A stretch of DNA of 64,000 bases from Pocillopora verrucosa. Lineage: Eukaryota; Cnidaria; Anthozoa; Scleractinia; Pocilloporidae. Made by a program: the position numbers and the translations under genes. The stretch is from contig NC_089312.1 in NCBI RefSeq assembly GCF_036669915.1, positions 7,641,438-7,705,437 on the forward strand. Direction: 5' to 3'. The notes beneath the pieces are model-generated. The model saw nothing but the letters and a program-made list of their open reading frames with translations, had not been told where the DNA came from and made no database searches. The stretch's first letter is position 1. Each line of letters begins with the position of its first letter. Of the stretch, positions 8,661-45,181 are shown piece after piece.

Positions 8661-8840
8661 GCTGACTTCCGGTTTCCAGAATAACCGTGACAGATCGATA
8701 GTAATCGGAGAACCAAACCTCGTGACATTTGATTGACGCGTTACTCATTTCCTTTTTTAGCGCACAATTTGAAAGAAGCAGTCGTTGGTTTCTGGATCGA
8801 TCAAATATCAGCAGTTTTTTTCTGGTCTTTCGCTGCCATA
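8661..8840. promoter_or_regulatory. Putative bidirectional promoter, NAAA-like / CHMP4
   Basis: Only 180 bp separate the divergent start codons at 8660 (-) and 8841 (+), so both 5' UTRs and core promoters must sit here or overlap. No obvious TATA box was seen. The assignment comes from layout only. Confidence 0.5.
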
Positions 8841-22101: not shown

Positions 22102-23269
22102 TACTAATGATGAAGCGTAGTTTCACCCACTACAGCATCCGGTTCTCAAAACTTTTTTCGGTCGTTGAGAGCAAAAAAACTGTGTTATCTTTGAGCACAA
22201 CAACGGCTGTTCACTCGCGTGGTTAGAAAACTGTATTATTTCAAAATTCTTTACGCTCACAACAAAAGAATCGTTGATGGTGCAGACAATTGCTCAGTAC
22301 ATTAAACGCCGGCAATTCAACTCGGAAAATTCTTTATAGAAGATAAATTTCATTGCTAGACGTGTGGGAGACTTCACAGTATTGGTTTACATCAATCGTT
22401 CATAGAATAAAATAACATATATTTGATTGGTGTGGTAACAGGAACAAAAACTCTCCACGCTTATGAAACATTAATCCTCATATTAAACATTAATTGACCA
22501 CAGTTCCGTCCTCTCGTTAATTCTTTTTGTTTTTGTTTTGGCATCATTTTTTCATAAATTTAATGTATTTGGTGGGTTCCATTTTGCTTTCCATTTGATT
22601 TCAAATATTCTTATTTCCTCACCGGCTCTTTTGGACAGATATCAAAGCGTCTAATGTCTAAAAAAACTTCAGCCCACAGTACTGATAGGTATGCTTTAGG
22701 AGAAACGTATTTATCGATCACTATCGCCTTGGTTATTGTACAAAGGAACGATAGAGAAATATTGTTTAAAATTCTGAAAATCCTATCGGAAAGCTGGTAA
22801 TTAGTCTTTGGAAAAAATCAAGCAAAGAGGTCTCGGGTACGTTACTCATGAACAAAACTCTTCTCAGTGCACTCTGGAGTGCATATAATGGGCTCCTGGT
22901 GCACTACGATTTAAAATAAAATTGTTACAACTTCCCGGGAAGCGGGCTTGGTAAATATATGATTTAATATTGCCCGTGCAAGCTTCATTTTCAAACAGTT
23001 TCGCTTCATTTACATCACCAATGTAGCCTTTTTTTCAAATCTGTCACTTGGAACCCATCACGTAGAGTTCTTCGTTCCTTATTAATTTTTTTCCCTCTTT
23101 TTGATTGTGTACCTAAGAAAATGATTTTTCTAAGGTTTCTGTTTATCTTAAAGCTTCCCTACAGAGATGCAGACTGAAAAATAAGCGATCCCAGATAAAG
23201 ATCGTTCAGTGGAACGTGGTAGCTACATCATACAAAAGCAAGATCTGAAAGATCACTATAATAATTATC

Positions 23270-23795: not shown

Positions 23796-24890
23796 TTACA
23801 AAGCAGTTGTATATTGGAACAGTTCGAAAGTGTTCAGGAAATTTTCTGGGTTTTCTAAAACACTCTGAACAACTTCTTCGCAACTTTTCAAACTCACTTT
23901 GTCGAAATCTCGAAACAAATTCACGCCTGGGATGAAAATCTGCGTCAGGTGTCTTTCTGAGAGACATCGTTGCAGTTCTCTTATGGTGTCTAAGAAACGT
24001 TTGGAGAATTTTTCTTCGCTCCAGAACGATTTCACTGGATAGTGTTCTGTTATACGCAACACGAGAGTTTCGAGTTGGAAACTGTCGCATGCATCCCTTT
24101 GAGAGTACATGTCGCCCATAATGATCTCAAGAATAAGCAGACATTTTATGCGACAGCCCATGTCTATTTCCAGTAGCTTCCTCATGGGGCCAGGAAAATC
24201 AATCTGCCACTGGTACGATGACCTACTCGGTGATGGCCTGGCTACCAAGTGAAATCCGGTCTTAATGACTTCTTCCTTCAAAGTCTTGCTCATCCAATCA
24301 GCTTGCTTGGATTCCCACCCATGCGCAGAGAGCACCCAGCGTCCTGGATAAGGAATTGCTGGGATAAGATCAACGCTGTATGCTTCAACGTCTTGTCCGC
24401 TGACCCGCATTGAAATCACATCGTCGTCGTCGACGACTTCTACACAAAAGTTACTCCCTTCGAGTAATTCCAGAAAAGACGAGCTGCTGATCACTCGGTT
24501 TACAAGCTCGAAGAGTTTCTCTCTGACAATCTTAGCCGACATGTAAACCTTGCTGGGATTACTGTTCCCACTGCAAAATTTCCACTTAGACACCATTTTT
24601 TTACCAGTAAGTTTCGCTAGCGCAAATCCCGCTGGTGTTTGCCCGTCTTCGACAGAAATCTCTTCAGGGTCCACCCCGTGAAAAATCAGAAGTACTTCGT
24701 AATGGATGGGTGACTTGATGGTATAAAAGCTTTTAGGGTTGACCATTTCAAAGTCAAATTTTCCATCCAGTTTCTTCACTTCTTCCAATAATGGATTAAT
24801 TAGGTTTTCGATTTCCTTAAGCTTCTTTCGACGATATCGCACGAAGGCATCAGCGTGGTTTTTGAGAAAATTATCCAGCGCTGCTTTCAT
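23796..24890 (-). CDS. Mab-21 / cGAS-fold protein, intronless paralogue
   Basis: 364 residues, the usual Mab-21 length, read from the ATG at 24888-24890; the frame stays open upstream but without another ATG. The domain follows its neighbour block by block: KIENL-type spine helix (EIENLINPLLEEVKKL), SFYTIKSPIHYEVLLIF, GQTPAGFALAKLTG, YSVDLIPAIPYPGRWVLSAHGW, and C-terminal IFIPGVNLFRDF. In an ungapped alignment with the neighbour, the metal-binding E-x-D pair becomes His63-x-Glu65, while the third acidic site is kept as Asp174. The GS position reads KS. So this copy has lost what the neighbour keeps, and the reverse. Catalytic activity is unlikely by itself; a binding or regulatory role is possible. 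Same strand and tandem arrangement indicate local duplication. Confidence 0.8.
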   Translation of the reverse strand: MKAALDNFLKNHADAFVRYRRKKLKEIENLINPLLEEVKKLDGKFDFEMVNPKSFYTIKSPIHYEVLLIFHGVDPEEISVEDGQTPAGFALAKLTGKKMVSKWKFCSGNSNPSKVYMSAKIVREKLFELVNRVISSSSFLELLEGSNFCVEVVDDDDVISMRVSGQDVEAYSVDLIPAIPYPGRWVLSAHGWESKQADWMSKTLKEEVIKTGFHLVARPSPSRSSYQWQIDFPGPMRKLLEIDMGCRIKCLLILEIIMGDMYSQRDACDSFQLETLVLRITEHYPVKSFWSEEKFSKRFLDTIRELQRCLSERHLTQIFIPGVNLFRDFDKVSLKSCEEVVQSVLENPENFLNTFELFQYTTAL

Positions 24891-24968
24891 CGTAGTGTGC
24901 CACTGATCCGAAATAATGTTCTCGAAAAAAAAAGCTTCCCGCGACCAAATGATGGCTGAATAAGACAA

Positions 24969-27698
24969 GAACTAATTACCAAGCGGTAATATGTTTGTTT
25001 CTGTCTTAATGGGTCGACTCCTCTGTTATATTAAAATTTCATGGAAGATTAACCGCTGAGTTGCGGCGCTCAACCACCTCTCACGTTTCCACCGTGTGAC
25101 TGTTTGATTTCGTTTTTGACTGCAGCAGGTCAAAGAATTTCTGTTTTAAATCTGTTATACTCTACGTAAATACACACCTGATAAATGCCAAATGCTAAAC
25201 AGTCTTTCTCATCCGATGTGCCAGCGAACCCGAATATTTGTTTAACATTTATTGGAGAGACTTGAAAAAGCCACTTTAAGCCAACAGGATTTTAAAATTT
25301 CGCTTTTTGTATTAATGTTGAAACTCGTGACATCGTGATTTGCATATAACATCATTGAAAAAGATAATAGTCATTTTCGCTCGCCGCTAGACGAGGTCAA
25401 TAAACGGGGGAGACGATAAATACTGGACATGACAATAGAAATTTCCTCAGTAGGATACAAGAAGGCAATTATTAAATCTCGCTACTTTATCCACACTACA
25501 TATGTTTTGCTCTTATTACTGTTGTTTTTTTTTCGGTAACTGAACAGACAAATTAAGAAATATAAAAACAGCATCTCTCGTGTACTAATTTAAACATGCC
25601 ATCGAAATCGGTGAACGAATTGATCTCGTTGTAAAAGGTCCAAAACTGATCTTTCTTGGGGGAGATTATCATCCAGTTATACAAACTATCATAAAATTTC
25701 CCTGAGACAAAATACTTTTAATTTTTATTTTTATTTAGACAAGTTCTTTCTAGAAACAAACATAAAACACTATCAAGACGGACCTTGTGGATGAATTAAA
25801 TGGTAAAAATTGTAATCATTGGAAAAAATTCATTTCTTCTCGACATCATGCACATAAACAAAATATTTTCCTCTGTTTCTCTTATTTCTCTCTCTTTCTC
25901 TTTTCTTCAAAACAGTTTCATAAACTCGTTTGCAATTAACAAAACGACGCTAATTAATAACAGAACCTCTGGCTTACATGCATATTCATTCTAAACTTTT
26001 AAATTAAAACTTTAAAACTCTCAAAATGTGAGAGCGTTCGCCGACATTCATCAAAATGTCTCTGATTTACACCAAATTACATTTTCAAATCTACCTGCAT
26101 TGTTTTGACTGCTGTGCGCTTTTTCCATCACAAAGGAAAAAAAACAAAACAAATTTTAAAGATATGCCTATTGAAACGGGTGATTCGTGCTTCTAGCCTA
26201 GTCAACACTTTCCCATAGATAGTAAATACAGGTGTATCTAGGTTAATAAACACAAGAAACCATACATTTCCCAGAAATTATACTGGAAACGAAAAATGAA
26301 GCGGGAGGGAATCTTTTACTGCTCGCCGGTAGCAGGTACATCTTATCGTAATATCTTATCGTAAAATTACCACAATAGAAATTCTCTTTGTACGTTTATC
26401 ATTTCAATTTTGCAGGAAATTAAGAATTTACAAAAAGGCAAATATGCAAATATACCTTTAAGTGAAGAAACAAAGCAAAAAAGCTAATGCTCCAACACTT
26501 ATGAGAATAAAAATAAATTATGAAAAAAAACATATATTCAGTTCATAAACCAGCCCTTTCATTTAATAATTTTGAAATAAGACTCCGTACCGTATGGTCG
26601 CATATAATCTCTTATCTTATATCTTATAAGTGTAAATAGAGACATAGATACGAAATTTTATATTTTCCTCAATGTGACACAAAACGTATCAGCGATTAAT
26701 ATTAATGTTCAACTCTTGCCCTGCTAAGGAAAGAAACTAAATCTTTGATCGACCTACAAAAAATTGAAATAACATCATGCCATGATAAACTTTGGTTCGG
26801 GGAAAATTGCGGACACTGTAATATTTATAAGCCTCAAATTAAGATTTTCTTAACAATAGAAAATCCACTCAGGGGACAACCTTGAAAGTAGAAAAAAACC
26901 TGTCCCTGAGTAGAAGTGTTCCTTTCATAAAAATACAACAAATGCAGTAAAACCTAAATTCTGGGAAAAACGCGGAACTAGAAAAACGTAACTGAATAGA
27001 GATGTCCTAAAGTAGAGTTACCAAAGACATGGCTCATAAGGTGGAACTTACATTGAAGAGGCAAAATCGGAAATAGAAATAAGTGTCCCTGAGTATAGGT
27101 GTTTATTCAGTAGAGATGACAAGTTAGACCATAGAACCTACATTCAAACTTGAGGCTGGAAAAAGTGCCCCCGAATAGAGATGTCCCAAAGTAAAGTTAG
27201 GAAATGCATCGTTCATTCAGTGGAACGTACATTAAAGGGACAAACTCGGGACTAGAAAAAGTGTCCCTTTATAGAGGTTTCCCTTTAGTAAAGATAACAT
27301 ATGGAAAGGTTACCCCAGTGGACATTCAGGTGACAGTCTTGTTAAAAAATGTTTCCTACGAAGTGGTGACCCTTCCAAAAGGGTAACGACGATGATTGGA
27401 ATTTCTTCCTTTAGGACCAAAGATTGTCTATTTGAACCAAAGGTTATTCATTATCATTTTTCCTCTGTATCCTCAAGGAAAGGCAGTTTACAACACTTGG
27501 CGACTTTTTTTTCTTTTTTTATGCTTTTTCACTATGTTACAATGTACTATTTTGCTCTTTTTTAAGAAACAAATACATAACCAATTCCGATATAAATACT
27601 ATTATTTCATCGTCTGGCCATTTGCACATTCGTAAGATGGGCCCTCGAGAAAGCACCGTGTTGTTGTCTTTGGCTGTGTTTTCCGTGTTTTCCTTTGG
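24969..27698. other. AT-rich intergenic region
   Basis: Lies between the second Mab-21 gene and the 3' end of the release-factor gene. Apart from the tandem array at 26880-27320, I see only AT-rich sequence with no coding exon. Confidence 0.5.
26880..27320. repeat. Degenerate tandem array, unit about 90 bp
   Basis: About five units share the order 'gg-act-agaaaaagtgtccc', 'tgaatagagatgtccc', 'aagtagagtta' and 'gtggaacctacattaaa'. Units differ by 20-30 percent by eye. The array ends at about 27320. Confidence 0.65.
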
Positions 27699-30600
27699 TT
27701 ACCTATTCCCTTTCTTCCCGGTGTCATATTGACTGGTAAGTTCCTGTAGCGCCTCGGCTTCGTGTTGAGACTGCAAAGCCGTGATCATGTGATTAAGTTT
27801 GTCTTCTCCCTCCAAAAACAGTTCTGCTCCATGCTCAGTCATACCTATTCTGTGATCAGTCACTCGGCCCTTGGGGAAGACATGCTCGTTTTTAGACTTT
27901 GAAGGAGGATATGCACAACAAGCTGTGCAATTTTTTTTTTATCACCGCCATAGCTTTACAATTATTCACGAAGGCGAAGTGAATATTTTTGAATAACAAC
28001 AATATGCATTGAGCCCGAGGACAATAATTGTTATTGGTACAATCGTTCCTTTGCTTTCGAATTTTCTGGTAAATTAGTTACGTGGTTGAAATTATTTTGT
28101 AACAAAATATGCGCACTACTTTCGCTATTCATAAATAGAGAAAGCACTACGCATATTTTGTTGTGGTTTTTTTGATTACTCGTCTCAAGACAGGCACACA
28201 ATTTCCACTAGGTTTATTTTAATCAGTCGGTAAAAAATTCAAGTTACTTTCGAAGAGCGTTACGTTACAAGAGCGTTACGTTAGTCGCATCTTTTGTGCT
28301 CTTCGAATTTCAATTTTCTACTATTGCGTTTATCACTTCCTCGAAAAACATTGACAAAACACAATACAGCCATTTTGAAAAGTAGCGCTCCTGCTCTAAT
28401 CACCTCGCGCGAGGTGATTATAGCGAGATATGACACAATTCTCGACCAGAGTTGACCAGTTGAGGTCAGGTGATCATAGCGATTGGGGACAAACATCAAA
28501 CATTCGAAATCATGTCTCCAACACTTCAAATTTCACCATAATTTCCCGACTTATGAGTTGGATTTTCTTATAAAGTAACAACAGCGGAGAAATGTGCAAA
28601 ACAGACAACTTTCTATCGTTCTTGTAAAGCTTACAATGTATCGACTGAATATTTCTCACTTAAAAAGACCATAGTAAACCTAAACAGAGGAAAACCTTGG
28701 ACTCACCTGAGGAAAGTTGTACGTCCTTATCTTTTCTGATCTTCCTCCACTCCCGATCTAATTAAATGGAAAACGTTTCGTTTCAGGCCACATTTGATTG
28801 AGTGTCGTAAAACAGCAAACTAAGTAAACGCAACAGCTACAACAACTACGGCAGCGACACAGCGGTCAAACTTTGGACGTACGCACGGGGATCTAATCTG
28901 GCCGGCCGCGCTCCAGTTTCCCGCGCAAAATCTCAAAGGAAAACATAGGGTACAACTGCTATCACTAAAAATAAGCAATTGAAACGCTCATAGAATCTAT
29001 AAAAGACAACAAATGCAGGGAAAAGAAGAACTCGAACCTTTTCGAACATAAAGCTTACTCTTTCGATCATCCTTTTGATTTAAATTTTTTTCTCAGATTT
29101 ATCCTAAAAGTTATACCGTTTTAAAACACCGTGACTTGCTAGCTCGTGCGATTGGTTCTGACAGTCTGAAAGCACGTTAACTAGCCAATATAAAGTTCGC
29201 ATGCGCAAAAGTTTGACCGCTGTGTTTCGTGTTTATCGCATCAGTCAATCAGACTTTCCGTTTTACAGCTGACCTGTTTTCTGCGGGCTTCAGATCTTTC
29301 TGAATCCAGTTGTCGACGCTGTATATCGTAAAGACGCGTTCGTAACACTTGTAAGGCTTTGTGTCGATTCTAAAAAGGGGGAAAAAACTTAGAATACATT
29401 TTTTAAAGAGTATCGTTATTACAGGAGTAATCACAACGGCAAATCAGGATGATGCAAATCGTGCTAAATCAAGAAACTGCTTAAAGCGCGGGAAAACGCG
29501 AGCGACCAAGTAGCGACTGGTTTCGGTATTGCATCTGATTGGCTAAGAAGATTGCACGCATATTCTGAGCCAATCACGTAGCGTAACGAAGAGAAACCAA
29601 TGCCGACGCATCGAGTGTGTCAATGATGTCCTTACCACATTTCAACGTAATCTATGATCTATTATTGAGCAGACCAACGGCAACATGAAATGTCTTTGTT
29701 TTAAATGATAACAAAGCAAATTTCTGTTGGTGGAATGTCATCTATGCGCCTGTGCTCTAATGGATCATAAGAAGGAAACAATCAAAATGCGAACATAATG
29801 CAGCTTATCATATAATACCTGAATCTGAGATCGTTCCTCTTGACAACCGACCACAAGTCCCGTCGGTAAATGAGTTATTCTGACTGCAGAATCAGTTTTG
29901 TTGACATGCTGACCGCCGGCGCTGAAACAAACCAGAAAAACTTTCTTGAGAAGCACTTCACTGCCGGCGTTTTTGTACTGTTGTTAAGTTACTTACCCAG
30001 ACGCTCTAAATGTATCAACTTTGAGATCGTTTGGATTAATCACCACATCTACCTGGAGAAAAAGCAATGCCAGTAACTTAAAAAAAAAAAGGAACAGTGT
30101 GTATTGTGAGGTATCGTAATTTAATTGACGTCGATGATATGTATTAAAAGGCATCGTAACTAATTTAGTTACTCTGTACTGAAGCATTTTAGTAATTACA
30201 AAAAGAGTAATGTCTGTAGTAAGTAATGTGCGTATTGCCGGGTATGCAAATAATTTAATTAACTGAATGTTAGCATTTTAGTGCCTGTGTTACAAAAATA
30301 ATAAAAAAATATTTTAAAAAATCAATGCTTCTGATTAGTAATACCATAATAACCAATAGTAGGATACTAATAAGTAAATAAACCGCTTGTGGTGGCCGAG
30401 AAGACGCATAACACCTACCTTGCTCCGGGTGTTCAGGAAGGAAAAACTGACCGTGATAGTACATGGCGCGATTGTAGCAGAGGAGTGAAAAAAAAGAGAG
30501 GAGCCTGGGTCGGGTTGCGACCCGTTCCAAAACGTTAAGGACTAAATAACGCTCGAAACTGAAGTGAGAAATTTTGAGGATAGTTTCTCAGGCTTGGGCA

Positions 30601-33600
30601 ATATTCCCAATTTTTGAACGCACACGATGTGGTCATTCCAATATACTTGATTGAAATGTAACTGTACCTCTTCAGGTTGTGGTAACACTGCCACAGTCAT
30701 AGTACTAGTGTGAATACGGCCTAGCGACTCTGTATGCGGAACTCTTTGCACTCTGTGAACACCAGTTTCAAACTAGCAAAAAATAACAACTAAGGTCGTC
30801 ATTAACCAAGTTTAGAAGAGAGATATCTATTATTGGCACATTCAAAGAGTCTTTTTGTCGACCGTTTCCGGGTAAATTAGAACCTACAGTATCAGCTGGA
30901 AGAAGCATGAAAATCAACAACAAACTCAACCCACATTTGAGGCTATGCCCAGGAAACAAACCTAAGCAACATTCAGCCTGCGCGCGGGCCCTCATTAACG
31001 TTTCGGCGCGAGCGTTTCTTCATTGCGGGAGAGTACAGCGTGTATGAAACATTGAGTAGCGCAGCTGGTGAGAAGTCTATAGGGAGTGTAACAGATAGTG
31101 ACCTTAAGCAGTCAGCACGACAACGCCGACGAAGTCATAAAAATTTTCGTGGTCTGAGCATGGCAACCCCAATGGCAAATAATTTAAGTTTCCATTTGGA
31201 GCTGCTCACATACGTTATGCTGAAGTTGGAGTGAGGCGACGTGAGAGACAAAAAAGACATCTAGCCATTCGTGAAATTCTAACTAACATAAATCTCATTT
31301 TTTAATCGATTTTTCCTCGGTGTTGTCGTCTTGACAGCTTAGGGTTCGTAATAATGTAGGCCTAATCACAAGCTACGCCACATTTGTAAGGTGTGCACTC
31401 TTGCAACAAACTCTTAATGTTTAAATACTCATTCAAGTTACCTTCATCGTGCCAAACACACCACTCCCTACAATACTCACAGAAGCTTCCTGCAAACAGT
31501 AGAACAAAATTGAACTCAATATTATTTATTTTTAAATTACAGCGTGAAAACAAAGCTACCAAGAGTTCTTAGTTCAATCAGAAATTGTTTTTATTTGTTC
31601 GGTTTTAGTTGAAATTCTCCAAGATTCATTCATTAGGACCTAAGAGCATAACGGAAAAAATTCAATTTGTACAGTGTAACTGTACAATGTGTACAGTAAT
31701 TCAAACAAAACTCCACACTGAACTCCGGGTTGAGAGGTCTGGGTTCGATACATGACCAGAGGCCCGTTTCTCGAAAGTTCCGGGCCCGAAGCCATAGTTA
31801 TTTTAAAATTAAATGTTAAAGAACAGAGAAGCAGGTTTTGGCACCCTAATTATTCCATTTTGTTTATTTAGCTGTCTGATAGTTTTATTGTACAACTTTC
31901 AAAACTTTTGAAACCATCAACTTGAATGAAAACAGAACAGCTATGCGGGCCCATTAAGTTACCAGGACCTTCGAGAAACGGGCCCCATGCATACCATTGT
32001 GTGGTGTCCATGGGGAAAACACTTTACTCCCAAAGTTTCTCTCTAAATGGGTACCAGAAAATTGTCAGGGAAGCCTGATGAAACACTAGGGGTAACCGTG
32101 CGATAGATTAAAAATTCAAAATAGTTCCAACAAATTATCATATAGTCCAAACTTTCAAGTCTACCTTAATACCACCACCTTCACTTTTACTAATGTTCAG
32201 AATTTCAAATTTCCACTTCTTGTAAGCTGAAAACCTGGGGTAGGCAAGAAAAGATAAATTAAAGGAAAAGTGTGCTCCAGAAACAATTGAAAGAATCTTA
32301 CGTCAGCCATCACAAAGTATTATACAACAGTTATCTCCTTACATACTGACACAAAAATTTTTGGCACCTTTTAAGACAATTTTTTGAAAGGATAGACTAG
32401 TCTTTAATCAACAAAGACAAAAATTGTTTGATTTCTAGTTCTTCTTTAAAACCATTTGTTTCACCCCGTTCTAGTGGCAATTACACCACAGGGGCCATAA
32501 ACATATAACTCTTATTCACTGAATTCAAATTTTACTTAACCGAAGATCTGATTCTTTATTCTCCCATCTGGCTGCTACGCATTTCCTTGTAAATTAGTTA
32601 TGAGAATTGGGTGCTAGATCAAGATAACAACTTCTACCTGGTTAGTTTGTATATTCTCATTACATGTTTGCTGGATAATGTATGGATGTTATAGGGAGAA
32701 ACTATATGTTAAGCACTTCTGAGGGTTAAACCAGTCTCTAATTTAAAGGAATTATTGTTTGATAAAATTGATACTCGCAGAATTTTACATTGACTGCACA
32801 CTTAAAAGACATATCAACTTTTTAGTTTTTAAGACAAACCTTTGATACATTGTCAACATCTCCTCAGTAAACAAGGATGCTTCCTTTCCACCAGTGCCTG
32901 CAGACCACAAATATAGCAATTATTATTTGCTCAGTGCCACACACCTCTATCTTTAGTTTTTGAAAGAGAATGGCTGATGTTAAGATATTTAATCAGTCTT
33001 GCATCATTTTCCGTGGAACTCAGCAAACTGCAAACAGCAGAAGCTGGGATGTGCAATTATGGAATATGTATTCCAAGGAAAATACCAATCAGATGTGAGA
33101 AAACTTAACAGACAGATTAAGTAATTATAAGTTTATGATCTGGAGTTTTTCTTGCATGTCCTGAACTTTCTGTAATTGGTCAGTGCACTATAATTTTCCT
33201 TGCATTATCAAATCATTGTGTTCATAGTTTCTTAATCTTCAGAGTAAAAAGCATTTAGCAGGATTACCAAGCATTTTGTAATTACATTTGTTTCATACAC
33301 CGCCATTCTATACCCAGTTAGGTCAATTTGTACCCAACCAGTTGAGTCATTTCAAACCCAAACTAATAAATTATTTTCCTCACATACCAGCCCTTAATTC
33401 TAGTATGGCACTGTTTTCATCATCACCATCTTGAGGAATAAGAGCCTTAAGCAACTCATCCTAGGAAAGAAAATGTAGCAAACAAAATTAAACAATTCAG
33501 TTTTTGTGTATTTCTATCAGAGGCTATTGCACCTAACGTGATGCAACACCAGAATAAGTCTGAATGATCAGAATATAAAATTGAGGGAAGGGGTAACATT

Positions 33601-36600
33601 AATAATATCCAAAAAATGCAAAGAGAGTGGCATAGGAGAAAATTTAGAAATCACCCACTCTTTGAAAGTTCATATAGTTTTAAGGTCCTGCAAAATCTGA
33701 ATAACTCATCATCCAAAGTCTATCAGTAAACTTAAAGCTAGGAATTGGCTGTGTTTAACCTTTTAACCCCTTAGAGAGACTGGCATCCAATTTCTCCTTA
33801 CAAGATCACCCCTACTGTAAAACATTAGGGTCATGAGAATAAGGGAAATGATCAACAACTAAAGAGGCTCTTGATTGTTAAACAAATTCTCCTTTTCAGA
33901 ACATTAAGAAATGTATAAAGAAAGTATGGCGAATATGCATACTAATGTTGGAGTGTAAAGGGTTATATCCTTTTCATTACACATAACCCCTGAATGAGGA
34001 ATACTAGTGTGAATTATCATTATGTTGCTATTGTATGTGGAGTTTCATGGTGATTGGACCAAATTTATAATGTTTTGCTTGCATTGGATTCATTTTGTTG
34101 GTGTCATACAGTGTGCTACCTTGGGAAAAGATTATGTAGAGGGTAGAGCAGATAAACTAGAACTGAGCTAAACTGCCTTAAATCAGCCCAGAAAATTTAC
34201 ATGGTGCAAAGAAACAACCACCTAGGTGAGGTAAGTTTGTATTTATTCAAAACTAGTTCAGATTTTACATTGAGAGTGAAACAGAAACTGTTTATACTAG
34301 TATAAATCCTTATATTTAGCTCACTGTGCAAGAATTTGTTAAAAAAGTTACTAGAACTTTTTAATGAAACAATGCTAAATGATCACTGTAAAAAAGGGTA
34401 CACATACTGATAGGAAATTCCAACAAGTTAAAAGTACAATGTACCTTTAAGTTTAAGTGATTTTATTGCTTAGTAACTTAGACCAATGTACCTCAATTTT
34501 CTTTATATCACTGAGAGCTTGCTTCTTATCCTCTTCTGCAAATTTCCCTAATTCTCCACCAATTTCTAATATCATTTCATCTAAATCCTTGATTTCCTAG
34601 AGATAAAAGAATTGAAACAGATACTACAGCAGTTAGTTACAAGTACAGTTCACTCCAGTTCACACCAAGATTCACTGGTTTGGGTCCATCTCATTTTTTG
34701 ATTGGATTTCATGCAGTGCCATACATTCAGTTTCTTTGTCTCTGTTTTTATGTTTCCTTCTTACCACAGAAATAAAAATACTACAGTAACTGTAATTATC
34801 ATTTGATTGTCAGGCAGAAAAAGTTTTTACCCGGGTTTTGACCATAAAATTATGGTGTTAACACAGGCAACCTTCCCCATTTCCAATTCTAACCAAATTT
34901 CAATAGCTGTGCATTGCCTAACATCAAACATAACAGCCTGCCAAAAGAGGTCAAACCACACATTGCCAATGAAAATGGAGCCAGTTTCACAAAAACATGA
35001 TTCAACATCAAAAAATGGTCATCAATTTCAATTCAATTCAATTTTTTCAATTCAATTTTATTTGTTAGCAATACAATATTATCACAGTCCTAGGTGACCC
35101 GCAATTAGCAAGCTATTCTAGGCGGGCCACCCTTCTAAAACAAGTGCTGTCTCTGCTAAGGATCACATACCGATACAATTAAACAAAGATAATCATTAAT
35201 AAAAATACAATTGTTAAATAAAATAAAATAAAATTAAGTCCGTTGAATAATTAAATAATCAATTGCAAAGTTATCAAGATATATAATACAATTGAAACAA
35301 GACTTAAACGAAGAGTTACTTTATCAAGAGATATTTACAAATTTCTGAGCAGCGTATATCAACATTCATCTCCTCATTTTCCAAAAGTTTTAACAGGCGA
35401 TTTTTAAGTTCACGCTTAAACGGGGTTCTGTTTTTAATACGAAGTTCTTTTGGGATGCTATTCCACAATCTTACACCTATTCTAGCAAAAGAAAATAAAA
35501 GTTGGTTAGTTCTAGACGCTTTAACGTACAGATTAGCCGTTGCTGAGAATCTTGTGAAATGGTGATGAACCTGCTCGGAGTGGATAAAGAGCATAGAAAT
35601 ATTAGACGGGGCACGGTGATTATCAATGTCATGCATCAAAGAGGAAACCAAATGAGAATAGAGCATAGTTATTGGTAAGATTCTGGAGTTAACAAATAGC
35701 GGGGCACTATGAGATTTGCTATCCGCAAAATACATTAGTCGTAGAGCACGTTTTTGTAAAATGAGAACCTTATTTAAATGAGTGTTAGCAGCTTGTCCCC
35801 AGGCAATAAGACCATAAGAGATATAGGGTTCAATTAAGGAGCGGTAGATGTTAAGAAGTGTGGCAAATGGGACAAGATGTCATCAAACTTCTGTTGCCTC
35901 TCAGTGAAGACCCTTGTCCCAATCAAACTGAGTTGTAATCATCATGATTAGTTCTATACAATTATTATTATAAAAAGACAAATTCAAGACATTTCTTATT
36001 CTCACCTTCTCCTTTGTCTCAATTTGGCTTATCAAATGGACAATAGGTGAAAGTTTAGAAAGCTGCTTGGATAAAGTCTTGTGTTCACTCGCAGTTGGAA
36101 TATTCCCCTGAAAGGCAACTCACCCGGTCACTACAATACAAAGTAAGACACACTGACTAACAGGTTAGTGTACACCCTTTCACACCTACAAGAGGAGCAT
36201 CTCTGGTCAGGATCCTGTTGTATAAAGGGCAGATAAGCCTATTCAATGGATAAATCACTATCCAGCATGTAAGTGATTGCAAAACATATGGCATTATCCA
36301 CTGGATATATCTTTATATATACCAATGTGAGGGTATAAAGGTTTAATGGATTCTAGATGGGAAGGTTCCATTACAAGTCCTGGTTATAGTCACTTTGTTG
36401 AGTGTTCCTGGCTGAAACACTTTATTTCAGGATTTTCTCTTTCTACTGAGGATTATAAATGGAATATACCAAACTGTTTGAATGGGAAATTTGACAAAAT
36501 TCTTAGGAGAGGAGGGAGGTTAGCTCGTGGTGAAGTAACATCCCATCCAAAAATATCAGAAAAAACTGATACTGAATTCAAGGGAAGGGGGATGATAATT

Positions 36601-37459
36601 TGAAAAAGTCAGCTGAGGGTACAGAGTGCTGGAGGAAGGAGGAGTTTAAAACTAAAACCACCCTTACAAACATGGAAATTCAAAGAACCATCTCAGACCC
36701 AAAGTTGAGTCTTAATGTCAAGTAACTTCACCCTTTCACTCCCCAAATTTCATCTGTAATTCTCCTTACTGTCTGCCATACAATTTTTATGATGTTAGTT
36801 CAGAGAATACAATTATTTCAACTTTCCCAAGAAGTATTTCCTTGAAGTATCTTCTGATTAAATTTTCAAGGAGATTTGTTAAACCCAATAAGAATAAATC
36901 TCGTTATCTTTGGAATGGCTTAATATAAAAGATATTGATGTAGAGTGGCAAAAGCATTATATACATTCACTATATCTCTCAGATAGTACGTGAGCTCTGC
37001 TTAGTCAAATTAGCAGGCAATATTTTAATGTAACATCGCTTTGTCAGTGCGTACTGTAAGTCACGAAACCTCGTTTTTTCCCCTCGGTCCATAACTTACA
37101 GCACAGACCTCAAACTGGGTTAGTAAGAGAAATGTATTATCACTGGTCAGAAATAATACCTCAGTAACAGACAACCTCTCAGTGATCTCTTCGTGTTGTT
37201 TCACAAGATTTTTCAAGTGCGGCTCAAGGGTGCTGATCACGTTTGACAACAACCTTGCTTGACTCTCTGGAAAAAAGAGTTATTTTTTTTGACAAATTAA
37301 ATCTAGTGAAGGCGACTGGACAGTTATGGACTGAAAAATAGACAGGAAAGGAGGCTTGAGTACAAAAGGCTTACCTATGAAGGGAAACCACAACTTACGA
37401 AACGTCGGAACAGCGTAACAAGTCACTACCTTAACGCCTTTCAAAGTATGCCGAAACAT
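27699..37459 (-). CDS. MTRF1L: Mitochondrial peptide chain release factor 1 (MTRF1L/mtRF1a type), 14 exons
   Basis: A class I release factor that recognises stop codons and triggers peptide release on mitochondrial ribosomes. Fourteen exons close in phase: 37459-37375, 37266-37160, 36107-36006, 34596-34492, 33460-33388, 32897-32840, 32234-32165, 31489-31442, 30772-30668, 30052-29997, 29921-29819, 29369-29274, 28757-28707 and 27869-27699. The product is 409 residues. It has an Arg/Lys-containing N-terminus suited to mitochondrial import, [11 protein letters not shown], the codon-recognition loop with PHT at 228-230 ([13 protein letters not shown]), the catalytic GGQ at 272-274 ([15 protein letters not shown]), and [14 protein letters not shown]. 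The uninterrupted P-x-T loop fits MTRF1L rather than the MTRF1 paralogue. It shares a 411-bp divergent upstream region with the PGC-1-like gene. Confidence 0.95.
28101..28162. repeat. Fold-back inverted repeat
   Basis: Arms aacaaaatatgcgcactact and (reverse complement) aacaaaatatgcgtagtgct face each other across a short loop, in the last intron of the release-factor gene. Confidence 0.7.
28398..28419. repeat. Perfect 22-bp palindrome
   Basis: AATCACCTCG followed by CGCGAGGTGATT equals its own reverse complement, inside the last intron of the release-factor gene. Confidence 0.75.
29425..29610 (+). repeat. Dispersed repeat with ATTGG/CCAAT blocks (copy 2 of 3)
   Basis: Shares agtaatcacaacgg, gcgggaaaacgcgagcgacc, gcatctgattggct and ccaatcacgtagcg with 16744-16962. 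Confidence 0.55.
31715..32106 (+). mobile_element. tRNA-type SINE (family S, copy 2), split by another element
   Basis: The left part, 31715-31758, holds gaactccgggttgagaggtc and the B-box-like gggttcgata. The right part, about 31986-32106, resumes with ccattgtgtggtg and cagggaagcctgatgaaac, as in copy 1. The 31761-31984 element separates them. It sits in an intron of the release-factor gene. Confidence 0.55.
31761..31984. mobile_element. MITE with 18-bp terminal inverted repeats, inserted in a SINE
   Basis: Left end GGCCCGTTTCTCGAAAGT and right end ACCTTCGAGAAACGGGCC are inverted repeats with one mismatch. The element is 224 bp and AT-rich in the middle, with no coding capacity. Confidence 0.75.
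32540..32735 (+). mobile_element. Short non-autonomous element, family III
   Basis: Holds GGCTGCTACGCATTTCCTTG, TAGATCAAGATAACAACTTC and TGGATAATGTATGGATGTTA, ending ACTTCTGAGGGTTAAA. Confidence 0.65.
33755..33965 (+). mobile_element. Short non-autonomous element, family I
   Basis: TTAACCTTTTAACCCCTTAG at the start, ATGCATACTAATGTTGGAG and GTGTAAAGGGTTA at the end. Intronic, antisense to the release-factor gene. Confidence 0.7.
35026..35878 (-). mobile_element. 5'-truncated non-LTR retrotransposon (LINE) 3' end
   Basis: On the minus strand a continuous coding tail resembles the C-terminal end of LINE reverse transcriptases: [27 protein letters not shown], then an open frame at 35735-35316 with [19 protein letters not shown] and [18 protein letters not shown]. 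The stop is at 35316-35318. The 3' end runs into an (aattc)n-type tail. Flanking 8-bp repeats gtcatcaa at 35018-35025 and 35879-35886 look like a target-site duplication. The insertion is in an intron of the release-factor gene, same orientation as the host. Non-functional fragment. Confidence 0.82.
36729..36812 (+). mobile_element. Family II short element, 5' fragment
   Basis: Holds CACTCCCCAAATTTCATCTG and TGTCTGCCATACAATTTTTA, then TTAGTTCAGAGAATA, where similarity stops. Confidence 0.5.
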
Positions 37460-37870
37460 TTTGATCCAAAATCGTTTGATTGATCAGTCACAAGTACGCG
37501 CCATGTTCCTCGTTTTTCTCACGACTGATCAGTCACTACTCCTCGTCATGTTTCTCGTTTGCGTCCGCCATGTTGAAGAAAAGTGAATGAGGTACAATAT
37601 ATGTACCAGCACATGACATAAAAAGTTTTGGGCGGAAAACCGCTGAATCTAAAAAATTAGTATGCTCGTCCCGGGCTCCACTCGACAAAGGATGAATGTA
37701 CACGTTGTGTCGCAACAAGTTCATCCGCGTGGTTTTAAGTCAAAAACACAGATGATTTAACTTCTTATCGTAAAGCGGCGTTTTCTTCGGTCGGTTATAA
37801 ACTTCGTCAGTTTTAAAAAGTAAATCTTATGAATTGTAATAGAAAAAATATACATGTGTAAAGAAGCAGT
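37460..37870. promoter_or_regulatory. Putative bidirectional promoter, MTRF1L / PGC-1-like
   Basis: 411 bp separate the divergent start codons at 37459 (-) and 37871 (+). Two related 'ttgatcagtcac...catgttcctcgtttt' and 'actgatcagtcac...catgtttctcgttt' blocks lie at about 37480-37560, a short direct duplication next to the release-factor start. Assignment is from layout. Confidence 0.5.
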
Positions 37871-40800
37871 ATGCGAAAAAGTGAAGCCGTACAACTGCGT
37901 TTGGTGTCTTCGTGCCATGATGTACAAAGCGACTCGAAACATAAGGATTTCGAGTCCGCACCGAACTTTGTTGCCCGTAAAGTGTCTAGTTCTTCAATTC
38001 ATGAAGTGTCTCAGGTAAGAACTACTTTTGACCGCCACAAAATAGCTGTGTGAAATAATTTTTTCTCCGGTAAAAAGTCGTTCTTAGGCAACGTAAGTCA
38101 TGTGTTCAGGCATGTTTATAACACGTGGTGTCAAAGGAGCTCTAAATCTTTAAATCCTTGCATTATAAAAACCCATGCAACTTTGATTGAATTGATTAAA
38201 CAGAGTTATTGAAATTTTCGTCGAATTTGAGCTATTATTGGTGAAAATCATCTTCACCAAACGACTCTTTAGCTACTTCGGGTTTTTTTTAAATATAATG
38301 TCTTCCTCAAATTGAAAAGTTGACTCGACTCAGAATCCAGAATCTTGATCAATTTCCCATTACAATGAGCTCATTAAACTTACCTTTGTAGGTGATTGTC
38401 TTTATGATTATCATATGTTTGATCAAAATGCTATGTCAATGTTCTTCAAAATGTGTACGTGACTTCACGCGAGTCTTTGTTAAGACAAAGTGTTTTTTTT
38501 TCTCTCTGGATACTAGAACGACATCGAGAGAAAGGGAACTTCTTCGAACGAGTTAGAAGATGGTGAACTTATTGAAGGTAAGTCGTGAGTTCTTGATTTT
38601 TTTTAATTCCAGTTCAATGAAGGTAAAAAATTCCAAAGATGGTCTTGAACCATAAAAAAAGATTTAGAGAAAATGAATTGTGAAGGACCAGCTACAAAAG
38701 AAACCTTTGAGAGCAGAATAAGCCAAAAGAAAGTAACAGTACTACTAATTTTTTTCCTTGCTCTTTGCTATAACAAACCCAAAAAATCCTTTACTTTTGT
38801 GAAATTAATGTATTTATATACATTGGTTAAAATTTCCCCTGGGGTTGCTCGGGAATTGTGACTTTTGAAAGCCAATTTTTTTATTTTCACTTGGCTGGTA
38901 CTATAATTCAAGACAACCAAAGACCAAAATTAAACTGGCCTCAAAGATTAAACTTCAGAGGAAAAAACATTAAATGACCACATGTCTTAGAGAAAGCATG
39001 GCATGTACATCACTCAGTGCAAATTGTTTGACTCCTGATTTTCTCAAGGCTACACATAATCCCCTCTTGCTGAGGGCCACACTTGAAATTTTGATCTCAT
39101 AATAAGTAACTTCACTGTTTAATCCTTTAACTCCCAAGATCCTACTGTTAATCATCCTCCCCAGCAAACTGCAACACATTTCCTTGTAAATTAGTTACCA
39201 CAATTTGTTGGTAGATCTAGATAGCAACATCTTCCTAACAAGTTTGAGCATTTTCAATCCCTGTTTGCTGAATATTGTATGGATATTATAGGGAGAGGTT
39301 TAATGTTAATTGCTTCAGGGAGTTGAAGGTGTTTTTTCTATTGTCACAAGCACAGTACAAAGAAAAATGCGAAATTCTCACAAGGAAACAAACTTTGAAC
39401 CTTAGGATTCCATGCTGTGAGGCTGAAATGAAAAATTTTGAGGTTCACTTCCCCTTAAAGCTCAATTTTTGCTTTGTCCCATGCTTGTGACAAAATACAA
39501 AAACAACTTTCTTTATTTCATTACTGAGGTAAAAGCAACACTGTCTGATGGCTGCCTTTTACATGTTTCAACTGTCTATAGGCAGTGAAAGTTTTTTGTA
39601 TGATTACTTATATGATAGTGTCCTTGTACAAGTACACATGTACTTGTCTGTGTAAATTTAATTTTTCTTTAAGTGTGTAATGGTCTCATTTGAGCTCCAC
39701 TCATTGACAGGGATTGAAGCTAATGATGTGAGCGCCTTACTGGAGCAGTTTTTAGAGTATGAGGAAAAACAAGGTACGTCATGGTCATTAAACCATACCT
39801 GAACTGCTGCACACTCATAATTTCTTGGATTTTGAGCTTCTTGAAAATACCAATGATTTAAAATTAAATCAAATTCAATTTCCCTTGGATTTCCATCACA
39901 CATCTACTGCAATTTTACCCTCATTAACTCAAACCTTCAATAACTAGAACCTCCCCTTAACTCAGAGCAATTTTCATTTCCTTTCAGGTCATTCTCTTTA
40001 AATTTTTACCATCATTACCTTGAATCATGTTGAACCACAACTGTCAATATGTGACAAATCAAAACAAACAGTGTGCTGCAGTCCAAAACATTCACTGTAA
40101 TTTATTTTGAAGCAGCCTTGTAGTCTTTGTCCTTTTTTGTTTTCTCCAAAACATGTCAGTCCAGTTCAGGTTTTGTTGGTTAAAGTTGCATTAAATTATA
40201 GTGCCTGTATCTTCAACTCCTGATAACTTGAAGTTTTTTCAACTTCCCCTGAAGGGTTGAGTTATTAGAGTTGACTGACTCAGATCAAGAATAGGCAGTC
40301 AGTTTTGGTATGCTTTTCAAATCATATAGGAAATTACTGATTTGTTGCAAGGGTCAGGCAACAAGAAATAAGGAATGACAAAATAAATGCAAAGTCTCCC
40401 AAGATTTTGAAGTCTGAAGCTCTTCTGCAGCAAACTTGTTTGTGAAACTAAGTTACTATGGGGCAAGGGTCCTGTGTACCATCAAAATGTCAAAGGCTCT
40501 ATAAGATGACTCCTAGTGTGACAAGGGATTGTTAATTATCTTATCTAATTCCTGTTTTCCCAAGAGGTGCAATGAAGGGACTAGGCTTTAATTGAAATAT
40601 CTTTGGTATTGCAAAAGCATGAGAGAAAACTCTTAGTTTTGTGACTGTTTAGTTTAGTGGTTGTAAATTTTGTCAATTCTTTATTCAAATTTTTTTTTCC
40701 ATGTTTGTCCCTATAGGTTCAATGGATTGCTCCACACCTCAGCTTTCCTCTCTGTAAGTGTTTGTCTGAACCCTTTAGACTTTAACATCAGTATGCATAT

Positions 40801-43800
40801 TCTCCACACTGTTCTCTATACATTTCCTAAGGTGCTGACAAGGAGAATTTGTTTAACAATCAAGAGCATCTTTAGTTGGTGATCATTTTCTCTATTCTCA
40901 TGACCTTAATATGTGATTCAAGGATGATACAGCAAGGAGAAATTAGGTGCTTATCACTCTTGGAGTGTAAAGCGTTTACGAAATACAGTAGTAGGTTGAA
41001 TTCTGAGAGAGATGCTAGTTTACAGGTTGCTGTTATGAAGCACTTTGCCTCTATTGCTTCAAGGACAAATCTTAAGGAATCATTTTCTTGTTGCTCTCAG
41101 ATTTTGGTTTTGAGATTCTTTTTTTAAGTTTGTGTTCTTTGATATGAATTTCCACTAAAATTATTTTCTTCATACCAACAAGTTGTTGCTGTAACCTGCT
41201 TTGAAGTTGTTTTGTAGCAAGGTGCTGCTGTCTTTTTTTGCAAGTTGTGAAATGGAAATCTCCTAAGGGGCATTGTATGTTTTGATAATTTCAGGAAAGA
41301 TACATCTTGTGAAATGCAGACTGTTTCAGACAAGATCAATTCATTTGCTGAGAAACATGAGCTGAAATTTGACATTCCATGTGATGTAGAAAATAGGGGC
41401 TTACCTTCCCTTGCTGAGGAGAATTCTGCACATTTTCATTCTGCTGAAAATAAAGAAAATCAAGAAGTTCATGGAACGACGAGTGGTGGATCTTCTCACA
41501 ATGATGTAAAAGGACAGGATGAAAATTCTATAACTGTTAAGAATTCCCATGTTGATAATCATGCAACAGATCACAACTATGCCTGTAGTGGATCTCCACT
41601 GAGAAAACCTATTCAGTTGAAACCAGAAGATGACAATACTTTGAAAGAGTCTATTCTGAAATGTAGTCCTCAAAAGTCTCTGGACATGGAGAATCATCAT
41701 CACTCTATTTCTGAAGAAACTGGTCCAAACCGTTACTCACACAAGAGAAGGTTAAGCTGTGATGATCATTCACCAGACAGAAAGAGGAGACTTCCAAAGC
41801 GCTATAGAGGTGCGTACTGTGAGGAGAGCTGTGGTGGCGAAAGCAGTTGTGATGAAGAGTATCACTACAGGGAAATGAGCACTGACAAAGATAAAGACCA
41901 TAAGAGACAGAATAGTTATCGGAAGTTTAGTTACAGCTCTGATGGAGACAGAAGTTGTTATAAAGGAAGCAATCGTAGACACAGCATGTGCTCAAATGAC
42001 AGTTATGATGGACGAGAGTATTCCAGTTCAGATGAAGAGTGTAAGAATGAAAGGACATCCCGATATGATCCTAGACGTTCTGAATCTGACTGGCGGCGCA
42101 AGCAATCAAGTGGTAGTGACAGAGAAGCAGACCATCACAGGAGCCCTCACAACAGAAGAAGGAGGAGGAGGTCTCGGAGTAAAGACCCCACTGAAAAGAG
42201 AAATGGTGTCACAAAGAACAAAACATTCCATGATATTGAATTTGAAAGAAAACTAGAGTTCAAGTTTGACCATAACATCAGGAACACTGCAAAGGTACAG
42301 GGAACATTTTCTTTTGTTGTTTTGTTTGATTGCTACATTGAAACTACCATGCAGTGGCTATCCAAAACAGAGGTTGTGTGCATTGTGTGATTGCTTGATT
42401 TTTTTTTTACAGTACTGTAATTTTTAGGTTGGTGGGAGTCAACCACCAATTTAACAATTGGTGGTTGAACCCCTTTAACTTCCAGAAGTGATTAACATGT
42501 AACTTCTCCCAGTGAAATCCATACATTAGCCAACAAATAGGTAATGAGTATTAGAGAGTAATAATTATTAAATATTATCAACTGAGTTGATTATGTAACT
42601 TGGCCACTGTAAAGAGTTTCAAAGCTGACGTTTCTAGCATTAGCCCTTCATCAGAGCAAATGGAGCAATTGTGGGTTGTGTGTGTGTGTTTATATGCAGA
42701 AATGGAGCTGCACTATCGGTGGGAATATGTGACCCTCCACGGGAAAACAGACACTAACGCTTTTCCGTTTAAGCTGCAAAACCGTTTGTTTACTATCCAT
42801 TTATATCCGTTTAAACGGTTCATGAAAGCGTTTAAACGGTTTGCTTATCCGTTTAAAAAAATTTGCATCCATTTAACGCTTTAGCTAAAACGTTTAAGCG
42901 GTTTGCTCATCCGTTTCAAAAAATTTGCATCCGTTTAACACTTTTGATGGTATTCATGATGATATTTAGGTTAAGAGTGTCGATTTGAAAGATAAATTTG
43001 TTCCAGAGTTTCGTGGCTTTCTGAACTGCAAACTGCCATAATGCTTCTTAGAATTATTAGGAAGATTGAGTATGCTTGAACAGGTTGAAGTTGTCACTTG
43101 ATCTAACACCAAATTATTGTGACTAATGTTCAAGGATTGTATGTAAAAATCAATTGTTGGGAGATTAAGGGTAAATTTATGTTCAAGTTCATGGACATTC
43201 CATGTTTAATTATTAAATATCTTTGTTAAAAGACTAAGTTTAATTCTGTCGAACATCTACATTGTAGTGCAGTCACATTTTGTATATATGGTCAACTCCC
43301 CGCTAATGGACACTCAGCATCCCAGTAACACCCCATGCATGTTAATTGACTCATAGCAATGAAGTTTGTATTTAGTTTGAAAATTATCAAAAACAAGTGT
43401 GGATCACTTTTGTCAAATCTCTATTTGTCCAGGGGAAGGCAGACTGTCTGTTCACATGACTAGTAATTACAATCCAGTCATAAACTCTCCCTTAGCAGAC
43501 ATCCTCCCAATTTTTTCAGTGTCCTCTTATGGGATTAATTCTTGTAGGTGGACAGCCCAAAAGTTCAAAAACTCTTTCAGTTGAAGATCAAAACAAGAAA
43601 AAAATAATAGTTAATGATGATCGTTCTAAAATTTTAATGTTCTATATGATTGTAGGAAGAGAGGCGTATTGTGTACATTGGAAAAATATCCAACAAGACA
43701 ACAAAAGATGATGTATTCAGCAGGTTTCGTCCATTTGGGCCAATTGAAAAAGTTACTGTTCACTTCAGAGAGAAAGGGTAGGGTATACTTTTGTTATAAG

Positions 43801-45181
43801 AAAACTCCAATACCAGATGAAAGTTTCCATTGTTTAGCTAATGACAGATTTTTAATTTGCACCATGGCTGTGACAGTTCTCTTCCTACACCTATAAGTTG
43901 CTTGAAAAGATTTGTTTCAAATTTAAGCATTAGTTTCTTTTTTAACTTTCTTAACAGTTAAAGGTTTGATTTGTTTTTGTTTGTCCACAGCTGAAAATGC
44001 ATTTTTTTTTACCTTTTTTCCAACAGGGACAACTATGCTTTTGTGACATTTTTTGAAACCTCCTCTGCTGCTGAAGCTATTGAAAGTGAGTGTTGTTAGA
44101 AATTTAGAATCTTCTGAGAGTCCTTTTTCAGTTTAGCTTTTGTATGATTTTAGGTGATGAGAAAAATCTCTTATTTTAAGATAATTATTTCCTTAGGGGG
44201 AAATGAAGATTCACGCCTTCCTGTCTTGGATCTTTGCTTCGGTGGAAGAAGGAAATTTTGTGGTGGTAGTTATGTAGACTTTGGTGAGTATTTTTTGAGC
44301 TTTAGCATGCATGTAATTTTGCAATGCCTTTCACCTGTTCCTTATTTATTTAACCCATTGGATTGGTTATTTAAACAAGGTTTAGCTGTTGTTTGACAAA
44401 ACCACATCTTAAACAATCCTCAATTTAGCTGAAACTTATACCTGACCATTTATTTTTGTGAACATTGTCATGAGGGCCAAAGAAGGGTATTAATGTAATC
44501 AAATCAACTCCCTTATAGAGAAAGCCCGAGGCCCACAGATTGCATAAAACTATGGTTTACATGTACAGTACTTGTAGGTTAGACGTCATGTAAATAACCA
44601 GCCCATCAACTCCCAGAAGTGATTAAACTGTAAATTCTCCCTCTAATGTCCACACATTAACCACCAAATAGCAGGTTATGGGAATTTATTCCCTCAAACT
44701 TATTAGATAAAAGTTGTTATCTTGATGTACTTATAATGCCAAATTCTTGTACATGTAACTGATTTACAAGGGAATGTGTAGCAACTGGAGGGTGGAATGA
44801 ACAATTAGATGAACACACCCCACCCTTGGTTTTGATTTGGAGGATAGTCTCTCATAGATTCTGTGCTGTAACAGAAAGGAGAATGGCCCTGAAGATCAAA
44901 GTGACCTTTTGAATCTCACACTCAGATAAGGTTCTGGAATGTATAGGATAAGAAAGACAAATAGTTTTCTGTTAGCCCCATCAGTGGGTAAAGAGAGATT
45001 TTTCTCATTTTCTGACTATGGAAAAATTTGATTCTCAGACTCGAATGCCAGTTATCTTGAAGAACAGGAGCTGAGCCGACCGCCATCATCAGATGAGATG
45101 GATTTTGATGCCCTACTTAGAATGTCACAGAAAAGTTTAAAAAGCAGAAAGGAATCTTGCAAGGGAAGATATATGTACTAA
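37871..45181 (+). CDS. PPARGC1: PGC-1-family transcriptional coactivator (PPARGC1-like), nine exons
   Basis: PGC-1 proteins are nuclear coactivators of mitochondrial biogenesis and oxidative metabolism. Exons 37871-38014, 38517-38577, 39711-39773, 40717-40753, 41295-42294, 43656-43777, 44027-44085, 44197-44283 and 45039-45181 close in phase, giving 571 residues. The diagnostic part is the C-terminal RRM: EERRIVYIGKISNKTTKDD (RNP2 at 440-445), FRPFGPIEKVTVHFRE, DNYAFVTF (RNP1, 477-484), then FGGRRKFCGGSYVDFDSNA and MDFDALLRMSQKSLKS. It follows the PGC-1 end almost motif for motif. Exon 5 carries Arg/Ser-rich stretches (RRRRRRSRSKDP), as in PGC-1, and a DHNY at 194-197 matching the HCF-1-binding consensus. 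The N-terminus has acidic LEDGELIE and SALLEQFLEYEE but no clear LxxLL. The start is the first ATG of the first exon. Confidence 0.92.
39118..39329 (+). mobile_element. Short non-autonomous element, family III
   Basis: Begins TTTAATCCTTTAACTCCCAA. It has ACACATTTCCTTGTAAATTA and TTGTATGGATATTATAGGG, and ends CAGGGAGTTGAAGG. In intron 2 of the PGC-1-like gene. Confidence 0.68.
40768..40977 (-). mobile_element. Short non-autonomous element, family I (minus orientation)
   Basis: Starts 15 bases after exon 4 of the PGC-1-like gene. Contains GAACCCTTTAGACTTTAACA, CAGTATGCATATTCTCCAC and TTAGTTGGTGATCATTTTC, and ends CACTCTTGGAGTGTAAAGCG. Confidence 0.68.
42470..42560 (-). mobile_element. Family III short element, fragment
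   Basis: AACCCCTTTAACTTCCAGAA, GATTAACATGTAACTTCTCC and CATTAGCCAACAAATAGGTA match the family III end at 44605-44770. Confidence 0.5.
42574..42660 (-). repeat. Dispersed repeat with hammerhead-ribozyme-like core (copy A)
   Basis: On the minus strand: CTGATGA (42654-42648), short stem-loop, then GAAACGTCAGC (gaaac at 42634-42630). Downstream are ttggcca and a tatcaactgagttgatta palindrome. The same layout occurs at 50245-50330, 52031-52116 and 62350-62505. Confidence 0.6.
42765..42940. repeat. Short repeats of CCGTTTAAAC / TTTGCATCCGTTTAA
   Basis: About eight 'cGTTTAAacgg' or 'ccgttta' motifs in 175 bp, including the palindrome CCGTTTAAACGG. The unit 'gcggtttgctcatccgtttc' plus 'aaaaaatttgcatcc' occurs twice, about 60 bp apart. 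In intron 5 of the PGC-1-like gene. Confidence 0.7.
44605..44770 (-). mobile_element. Short non-autonomous element, family III (minus orientation)
   Basis: CATCAACTCCCAGAAGTGAT, AGATAAAAGTTGTTATCTTG and ACTGATTTACAAGGGAATGT are the reverse complement of family III blocks. In the last intron of the PGC-1-like gene. Confidence 0.6.

Follow-up and report, generated by a model that had tools for sequence, protein, structure and literature searches.

Head-to-head release-factor and PGC-1-family genes flanking a 411-bp gap in the coral Pocillopora verrucosa: probably an ordinary compact divergent gene pair

In the coral Pocillopora verrucosa, a gene for a mitochondrial release factor and a gene of the PGC-1 family lie head to head, their start codons separated by 411 bp. 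We consider it likely that the two form an ordinary compact divergent gene pair, and their promoters probably overlap. The region was analysed within a window of 64,000 nucleotides (contig NC_089312.1, positions 7,641,438 to 7,705,437, forward strand). The sequence-only reading with which this work began had proposed that the two genes share a promoter serving as a simple device for mitochondrial co-regulation. A shared or overlapping promoter region remains plausible from the geometry of the pair and the elevated CpG content of the gap, whereas the co-regulation device is without positive evidence. The pair comprises the following features.

27699 to 37459, minus strand: release-factor gene of the MTRF1L type, 14 coding exons, 409 amino acids, start codon at 37459
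Within 27869 to 27699, minus strand: stop codon of the release-factor gene, in the spliced frame
37460 to 37870, no strand: gap between the two start codons, exactly 411 bp, a putative bidirectional promoter region together with both 5' leaders
37871 to 45181, plus strand: PGC-1-family coactivator gene, 9 coding exons, 571 amino acids, start codon at 37871

Both gene models were obtained by joining exons by eye at GT-AG sites and were checked by script afterwards; GT-AG boundaries at all 21 introns of the two genes are thus the criterion of selection and not an independent result. Spliced translation gives a single open frame across the joined exons in both genes. The release-factor protein exhibits the Pfam domains PCRF (1.2e-57) and RF-1 (1.8e-44), and its translation contains both GAGGQ and PHT, that is, the GGQ motif and a PxT-type motif. 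Among the 50 solved relatives listed, the top match is human MTRF1L (7nqh, E 3.6e-100), with 315 residues aligned and zero gaps, and human MTRF1 (8oin, 8.3e-88) ranks behind it among the matches listed. As read from its sequence, the minus-strand gene is a mitochondrial class-I release factor of the MTRF1L type, a label that would cover either a strict MTRF1L or a single factor predating the vertebrate MTRF1/MTRF1L split. In a search of the coral's own genome (353,415,432 bases in 52 contigs), the RF-1 family model was found in two places, one being the release-factor gene itself and the other lying on contig C2; this search was an exon-by-exon, loose first look, so that the gene is not proven to be the sole class-I factor in the genome. 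The exon on contig C2 (L002:1501-1629) encodes 43 residues, GGQ included, and resembles a small rescue factor, which we take to be MTRFR/C12orf65. A reading frame of 187 amino acids at 35316-35879 on the minus strand, within a release-factor intron, gives the impression of the C-terminus of a LINE-type element; Pfam gave no match for it.

Members of the PGC-1 family are described as marked by an RRM, an RS region and a C-terminal FDSLL/FEALL motif (PMC4090675, PMC10468312). In the coral protein, Pfam places RRM_1 (4.8e-10) at residues 441-498, toward the C-terminus, and the preceding residues 311-436 contain 23 arginines and 20 serines; just seven RS/SR dipeptides occur there, so that this region is RS-rich without forming a strict RS repeat. 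Because PGC-1beta is without an arginine/serine domain according to a review (PMC10904817), this stretch is not defining for every PGC-1 member. The C-terminal motif is represented by FDALL at 547 of 571, and an F[DE]xLL within the last 40 residues occurs in a fraction of 0.0008 of 5000 composition shuffles. The LXXLL found toward the N-terminus of vertebrate members is absent from the whole protein, which has only VSALL at 75 and FDALL at 547, and nuclear-receptor docking of the vertebrate style by the coral protein appears doubtful. Since the FEALLL variant of the fly is reported to be able to interact with nuclear receptors (PMC4090675), LXXLL was not counted as defining for invertebrate PGC-1.

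Against the C-terminus of human PGC-1alpha, 51 of 126 residues of the coral protein are identical. The RRM matches only general RNA-binding proteins in the PDB, TIA-1 being the best (7.7e-07), with no PGC-1-named entry among the 41 sequences found at E up to 0.1. Overall, the assignment of the plus-strand gene to the PGC-1 family is sound. The earlier identification of the two neighbours, from GGQ/PHT on one side and from the PGC-1 RRM and C-terminus on the other, is borne out by the spliced frames, the Pfam domains, the 7nqh match and FDALL. DHNY at 194 of the PGC-1-like protein fits an HCF-binding-type motif and was given no weight, at least one such motif being found in 15% of composition shuffles.

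A coral PGC-1 as such is not new, having already appeared in print (PMC10838073). PGC-1 is mentioned solely in the reference lists of PMC3176305 and PMC4834350, and the relevant passage of PMC4582120 invokes PGC-1alpha for hydroids and names no cnidarian gene there. Scans of prokaryotic and viral contigs, aimed at stray animal contigs, gave 18 + 99 pattern matches to the PGC-1 protein in bacterial/archaeal contigs and 7 in viral contigs, with no relative confirmed in either set; a 20-base pattern from the end of the release-factor first exon had no match in the viral contigs.

The back-to-back arrangement with starts 411 bp apart was found as first described, with start codons at 37459 on the minus strand and 37871 on the plus strand; this distance runs from start codon to start codon and not between transcription starts. 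The two protein genes lie on opposite strands with their 5' ends facing, as in a head-to-head pair. An in-frame stop lies upstream of each start codon inside the gap and, therefore, neither first coding exon crosses the gap, a statement that concerns coding exons only. Inside the gap, 7 upstream ATGs precede the release-factor start and 12 precede the PGC-1 start. A 747-bp stretch consisting of the gap and its flanks occurs once in the assembly. The G+C content of the gap is 39% and its CpG observed/expected ratio 1.52, compared with a median of 0.79 in 1272 windows of 411 bp; a ratio of at least 1.52 is reached in 31 of these 1272, six of which overlap the gap. The gap contains the following elements.

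37478 to 37515, no strand: direct repeat copy 1, with TGATCAGTCAC at 37481 and a minus-strand upstream ATG at 37504
37523 to 37560, no strand: direct repeat copy 2, with TGATCAGTCAC at 37526 and a minus-strand upstream ATG at 37549
37564 to 37574, minus strand: YY1/Kozak-like site, a perfect match to the consensus AANATGGCGGM, 5' of the release-factor start
37796 to 37801, plus strand: TATAAA hexamer, 70-75 bp upstream of the PGC-1 start codon

The YY1-like site and the repeats (37478-37574) lie at the opposite end of the gap from TATAAA (37796-37801), which might suggest two independent neighbouring promoters with little coupling, a YY1-type promoter serving the release factor and another, perhaps TATA-assisted and inducible, serving PGC-1. 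Uncoupled neighbours would not be without parallel: among 1,770 fly pairs with data, 404 are reported to be significantly negatively correlated, and 1,031 significantly positively, in one dataset or more (PMC2670823). However, CpG enrichment spans the gap (observed/expected 1.02 to 2.03 in 200-bp blocks from 37300 to 38099), and the TATAAA hexamer fails the fuller TATAWAWR consensus, so that we regard separate promoters as quite improbable. An exact TATAWAWR is absent from the gap; with one mismatch allowed there are 8 sites, where shuffles give 3.0 and the rate in the window as a whole would give 4.3. A bacterial promoter scan was disregarded as inapplicable to an animal gene.

A short direct duplication containing TGATCAGTCAC near the release-factor start had also been noticed from the letters, and it proves to be a 38-bp repeat beyond chance. 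The copies, 38 bp each and 45 bp apart from start to start, are 82% identical; they match at 31 of 38 positions, and in 500 dinucleotide shuffles the mean was 20.9 and the maximum 25, with none at 31. Tandem Repeats Finder reported no array at score 30. Within each copy lies an ATG (37549, 37504) that opens a 6-codon ORF upstream of the release-factor start. Elsewhere in the window, the 11-mer TGATCAGTCAC occurs exactly a third time, at 27853-27863 in coding exon 14 of the release-factor gene, where the minus strand reads VTDH; with one mismatch allowed it has 4 sites in the window, with a mean expectation of 1.15 and 3 of 100 shuffles reaching that number. Because this extra copy is coding, the idea that TGATCAGTCAC is a dedicated binding site was rejected; its doubling belongs to the 38-bp local duplication. 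A role for RNA structure in the leader was likewise set aside: base pairing between copies of its palindromic core is possible, yet the leader folds no better than shuffles (z -0.84, 34/200 at least as good). The repeat would be a small local duplication in the release-factor leader that multiplies short upstream ORFs, with a candidate regulatory role only.

The gap was scanned with 17 consensus strings, two of them for YY1. For a perfect YY1-like site such as that at 37564-37574, 200 shuffles give an expectation of 0.00 and the rate in the window one of 0.01; the ATG of the site opens an 11-codon upstream ORF. Given the number of strings tried, this match is suggestive and not proof. No site was found in the gap with the consensuses for NRF-1 (up to three mismatches), ETS/GABP (up to two) or ERR (up to one). 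The PBX/HOX-like TGATTGAT, present once in repeat copy 1 (expected 0.03), and GGGCGG, present once in the gap (expected 0.01), come from a scan of 17 strings, and we do not rely on them.

The window also holds a second pair, which provides a useful comparison.

8169 to 9485, minus / plus strands: acid-amidase-like / Snf7 pair, a tighter head-to-head pair

The minus-strand gene of this pair is acid-amidase-like (Pfam NAAA-beta, 3.9e-9), and the plus-strand gene is Snf7 (Pfam 4.6e-48), CHMP4-like by our own reading. Their in-frame start codons, at 8660 or 8648 (minus) and 8841 (plus), are separated by 180 or 192 bp, and no common function of the two is evident. The window has 79 stop-to-stop ORFs that reach 85 amino acids; 10 of these, picked mainly by length, were submitted to Pfam, and 5 of the 10 had a match; tight divergent pairs hold four of the seven nameable genes of the window. 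Other features include two neighbouring Mab-21/cGAS-like frames on the minus strand (20125-22122 and 23799-24971; 666 and 391 amino acids), both with nucleotidyltransferase and C-terminal domains. At 987-1833, the window's most G+C-rich part, several frames are open on both strands (for example, 277 amino acids plus and 270 minus); the one frame submitted to Pfam had no match, and this stretch is possibly a repeat.

The YY1-like motif is not peculiar to the release-factor gap. The 13-mer TTCAACATGGCGG is common to this gap and to the acid-amidase-like start, in each case in the orientation of the minus-strand gene; it lies some 110 bp upstream of the release-factor start codon but overlaps the second in-frame ATG of the acid-amidase-like gene. 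The related AANATGGCGG has three sites in the window, these two and a third at 4345, antisense in a GPCR reading frame. In a genome sample of twenty 10-kb stretches (200,000 bases, 19,143 of them N), AANATGGCGG has 4 occurrences and ranks first among 120 cores (ATGGCGG together with its one-CpG permutations), for which the mean is 0.64. Because the motif recurs at the start of the second pair and AANATGGCGG is over-represented in the sample, it looks like a general start-site/Kozak element and not a mark of mitochondrial control. Against this view, the bare 7-mer ATGGCGG only reaches rank 23 among the 120 cores, and the four sampled AANATGGCGG sites have local CpG values (0.77 to 1.03) barely above that of the sample (0.76). 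A YY1/Kozak motif to which the element may be likened is described in the sponge Amphimedon (PMC4773876).

Close divergent pairs are common in animals. In the fly, 31.6% of genes are reported to be in divergent pairs spaced by under 1 kb, with 59.0% of them closer than 400 bp (PMC2670823), and divergent pairs hold about one third of fly and sponge genes (PMC2670823, PMC4773876). One survey describes short divergent gaps as not enriched outside terrestrial vertebrates (PMC2871058), and for this reason the fly and sponge frequencies may mostly reflect gene density. Human pairs are described as co-expressed; tandem duplicates aside, they share a biological process not significantly more than random pairs do, and their likeness in molecular function exceeds that of random pairs but not that of other neighbours (PMC3403606). 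No report of the coral release-factor/PGC-1 pair was found in the titles and abstract beginnings of the open-licence literature, among the matches listed.

This background bears on the proposal of a selected co-regulation device, in which one promoter would raise mitochondrial translation-termination capacity and a biogenesis coactivator together. Both products fit a mitochondrial theme, PGC-1 being a driver of biogenesis (PMC10904817); conserved divergent pairs are reported to be related in function more often, with HSPD1/HSPE1 as a mitochondrial precedent (PMC2871058); and mammalian PGC-1alpha is described as binding YY1 (PMC10904817), for which the gap contains a perfect site. However, NRF-1, ETS/GABP and ERR-like sites are absent at the mismatch levels tried, the YY1-like element is also present at the unrelated acid-amidase-like/Snf7 pair, and the release factor is one among very many mitochondrial genes, in a pair that was picked post hoc. 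The device reading is therefore unsupported, since a tighter pair with no evident common function lies in the same window, no NRF-1/GABP/ERR site was found at this stringency and such pairs are common; we hold it to be unlikely. Because conserved divergent pairs are more often related in function, conservation is the deciding test.

As an ordinary compact divergent gene pair, the two genes would flank a single open-chromatin region that fires both ways. Human YY1 sites are reported to favour a position just downstream of the transcription start (PMC11269187), which would predict a release-factor start near 37575, at the YY1-like site or immediately upstream of it; transcription of PGC-1 would begin a few tens of bases upstream of 37871. 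The outcome would be the loose expression correlation typical of divergent pairs, and the mitochondrial theme of both genes would be incidental. It counts against this ordinary-pair view that both products are mitochondria-related in other animals, so that a coincidence is needed. In addition, human paired genes are described as sharing a cellular component above chance, more so than random pairs and more so than other neighbours (PMC3403606).

A further possibility combines these elements in an autoregulatory bidirectional promoter. Mammalian PGC-1alpha and YY1 are reported to interact (PMC10904817), and by analogy YY1 at 37564-37574 might recruit coral PGC-1, raising both PGC-1 and the release factor, while the upstream ORFs of the duplication would damp release-factor translation. 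We consider this very improbable; if true, it would represent an early-animal mitochondrial control module. As it stands, the pair matters little, being one more close divergent pair. Should it prove to be co-expressed and also conserved among cnidarians, it would offer a simple genetic way into the question of how mitochondrial translation is matched to mitochondrial biogenesis in corals.

The coral pair resembles animal head-to-head genes in general, with opposite strands, a start-to-start arrangement, a CpG-rich gap of less than 1 kb and no exact TATA, but it is known here by the start codons of one species and not by transcription starts. A close structural parallel is human PREPL-C2ORF34 (PMC2713978), which is described as having a 405-bp gap, compared with 411 bp here, and a YY1-type site. 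The genes themselves are different, however, and the human gap is GC-rich (averaging more than 70% in a fragment of about 300 bp), whereas the coral gap has 39% G+C; moreover, the human promoter is driven by NRF-2 and YY-1 and needs NRF-2/GABP, whereas the coral gap is without an ETS/GABP-like site at up to two mismatches. Human HSPD1-HSPE1 (PMC2871058) likewise consists of two head-to-head genes with mitochondrial roles, but these are presented as functional partners and a conserved pair, whereas the coral pair is known from the geometry of one genome.

Regarding the PGC-1 protein itself, the PGC-1alpha-like pdam_00012386 of Pocillopora damicornis (PMC10838073) has 559 amino acids compared with 571 here. 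Its residues 413-548 match human PGC-1alpha 663-798, the same human end that is matched by the protein from the window; this comparison is by table row, and the row's last column, 40, was taken as percent identity. Drosophila Spargel/dPGC-1 (PMC4090675, PMC10468312) is described as about 300 amino acids larger than mammalian PGC-1, whereas the coral protein is shorter (571 amino acids versus 798 for human PGC-1alpha). As in the coral protein, Spargel combines an RRM and an arginine/serine-rich region with a C-terminal motif, of the FEALL type, in place of FDSLL.
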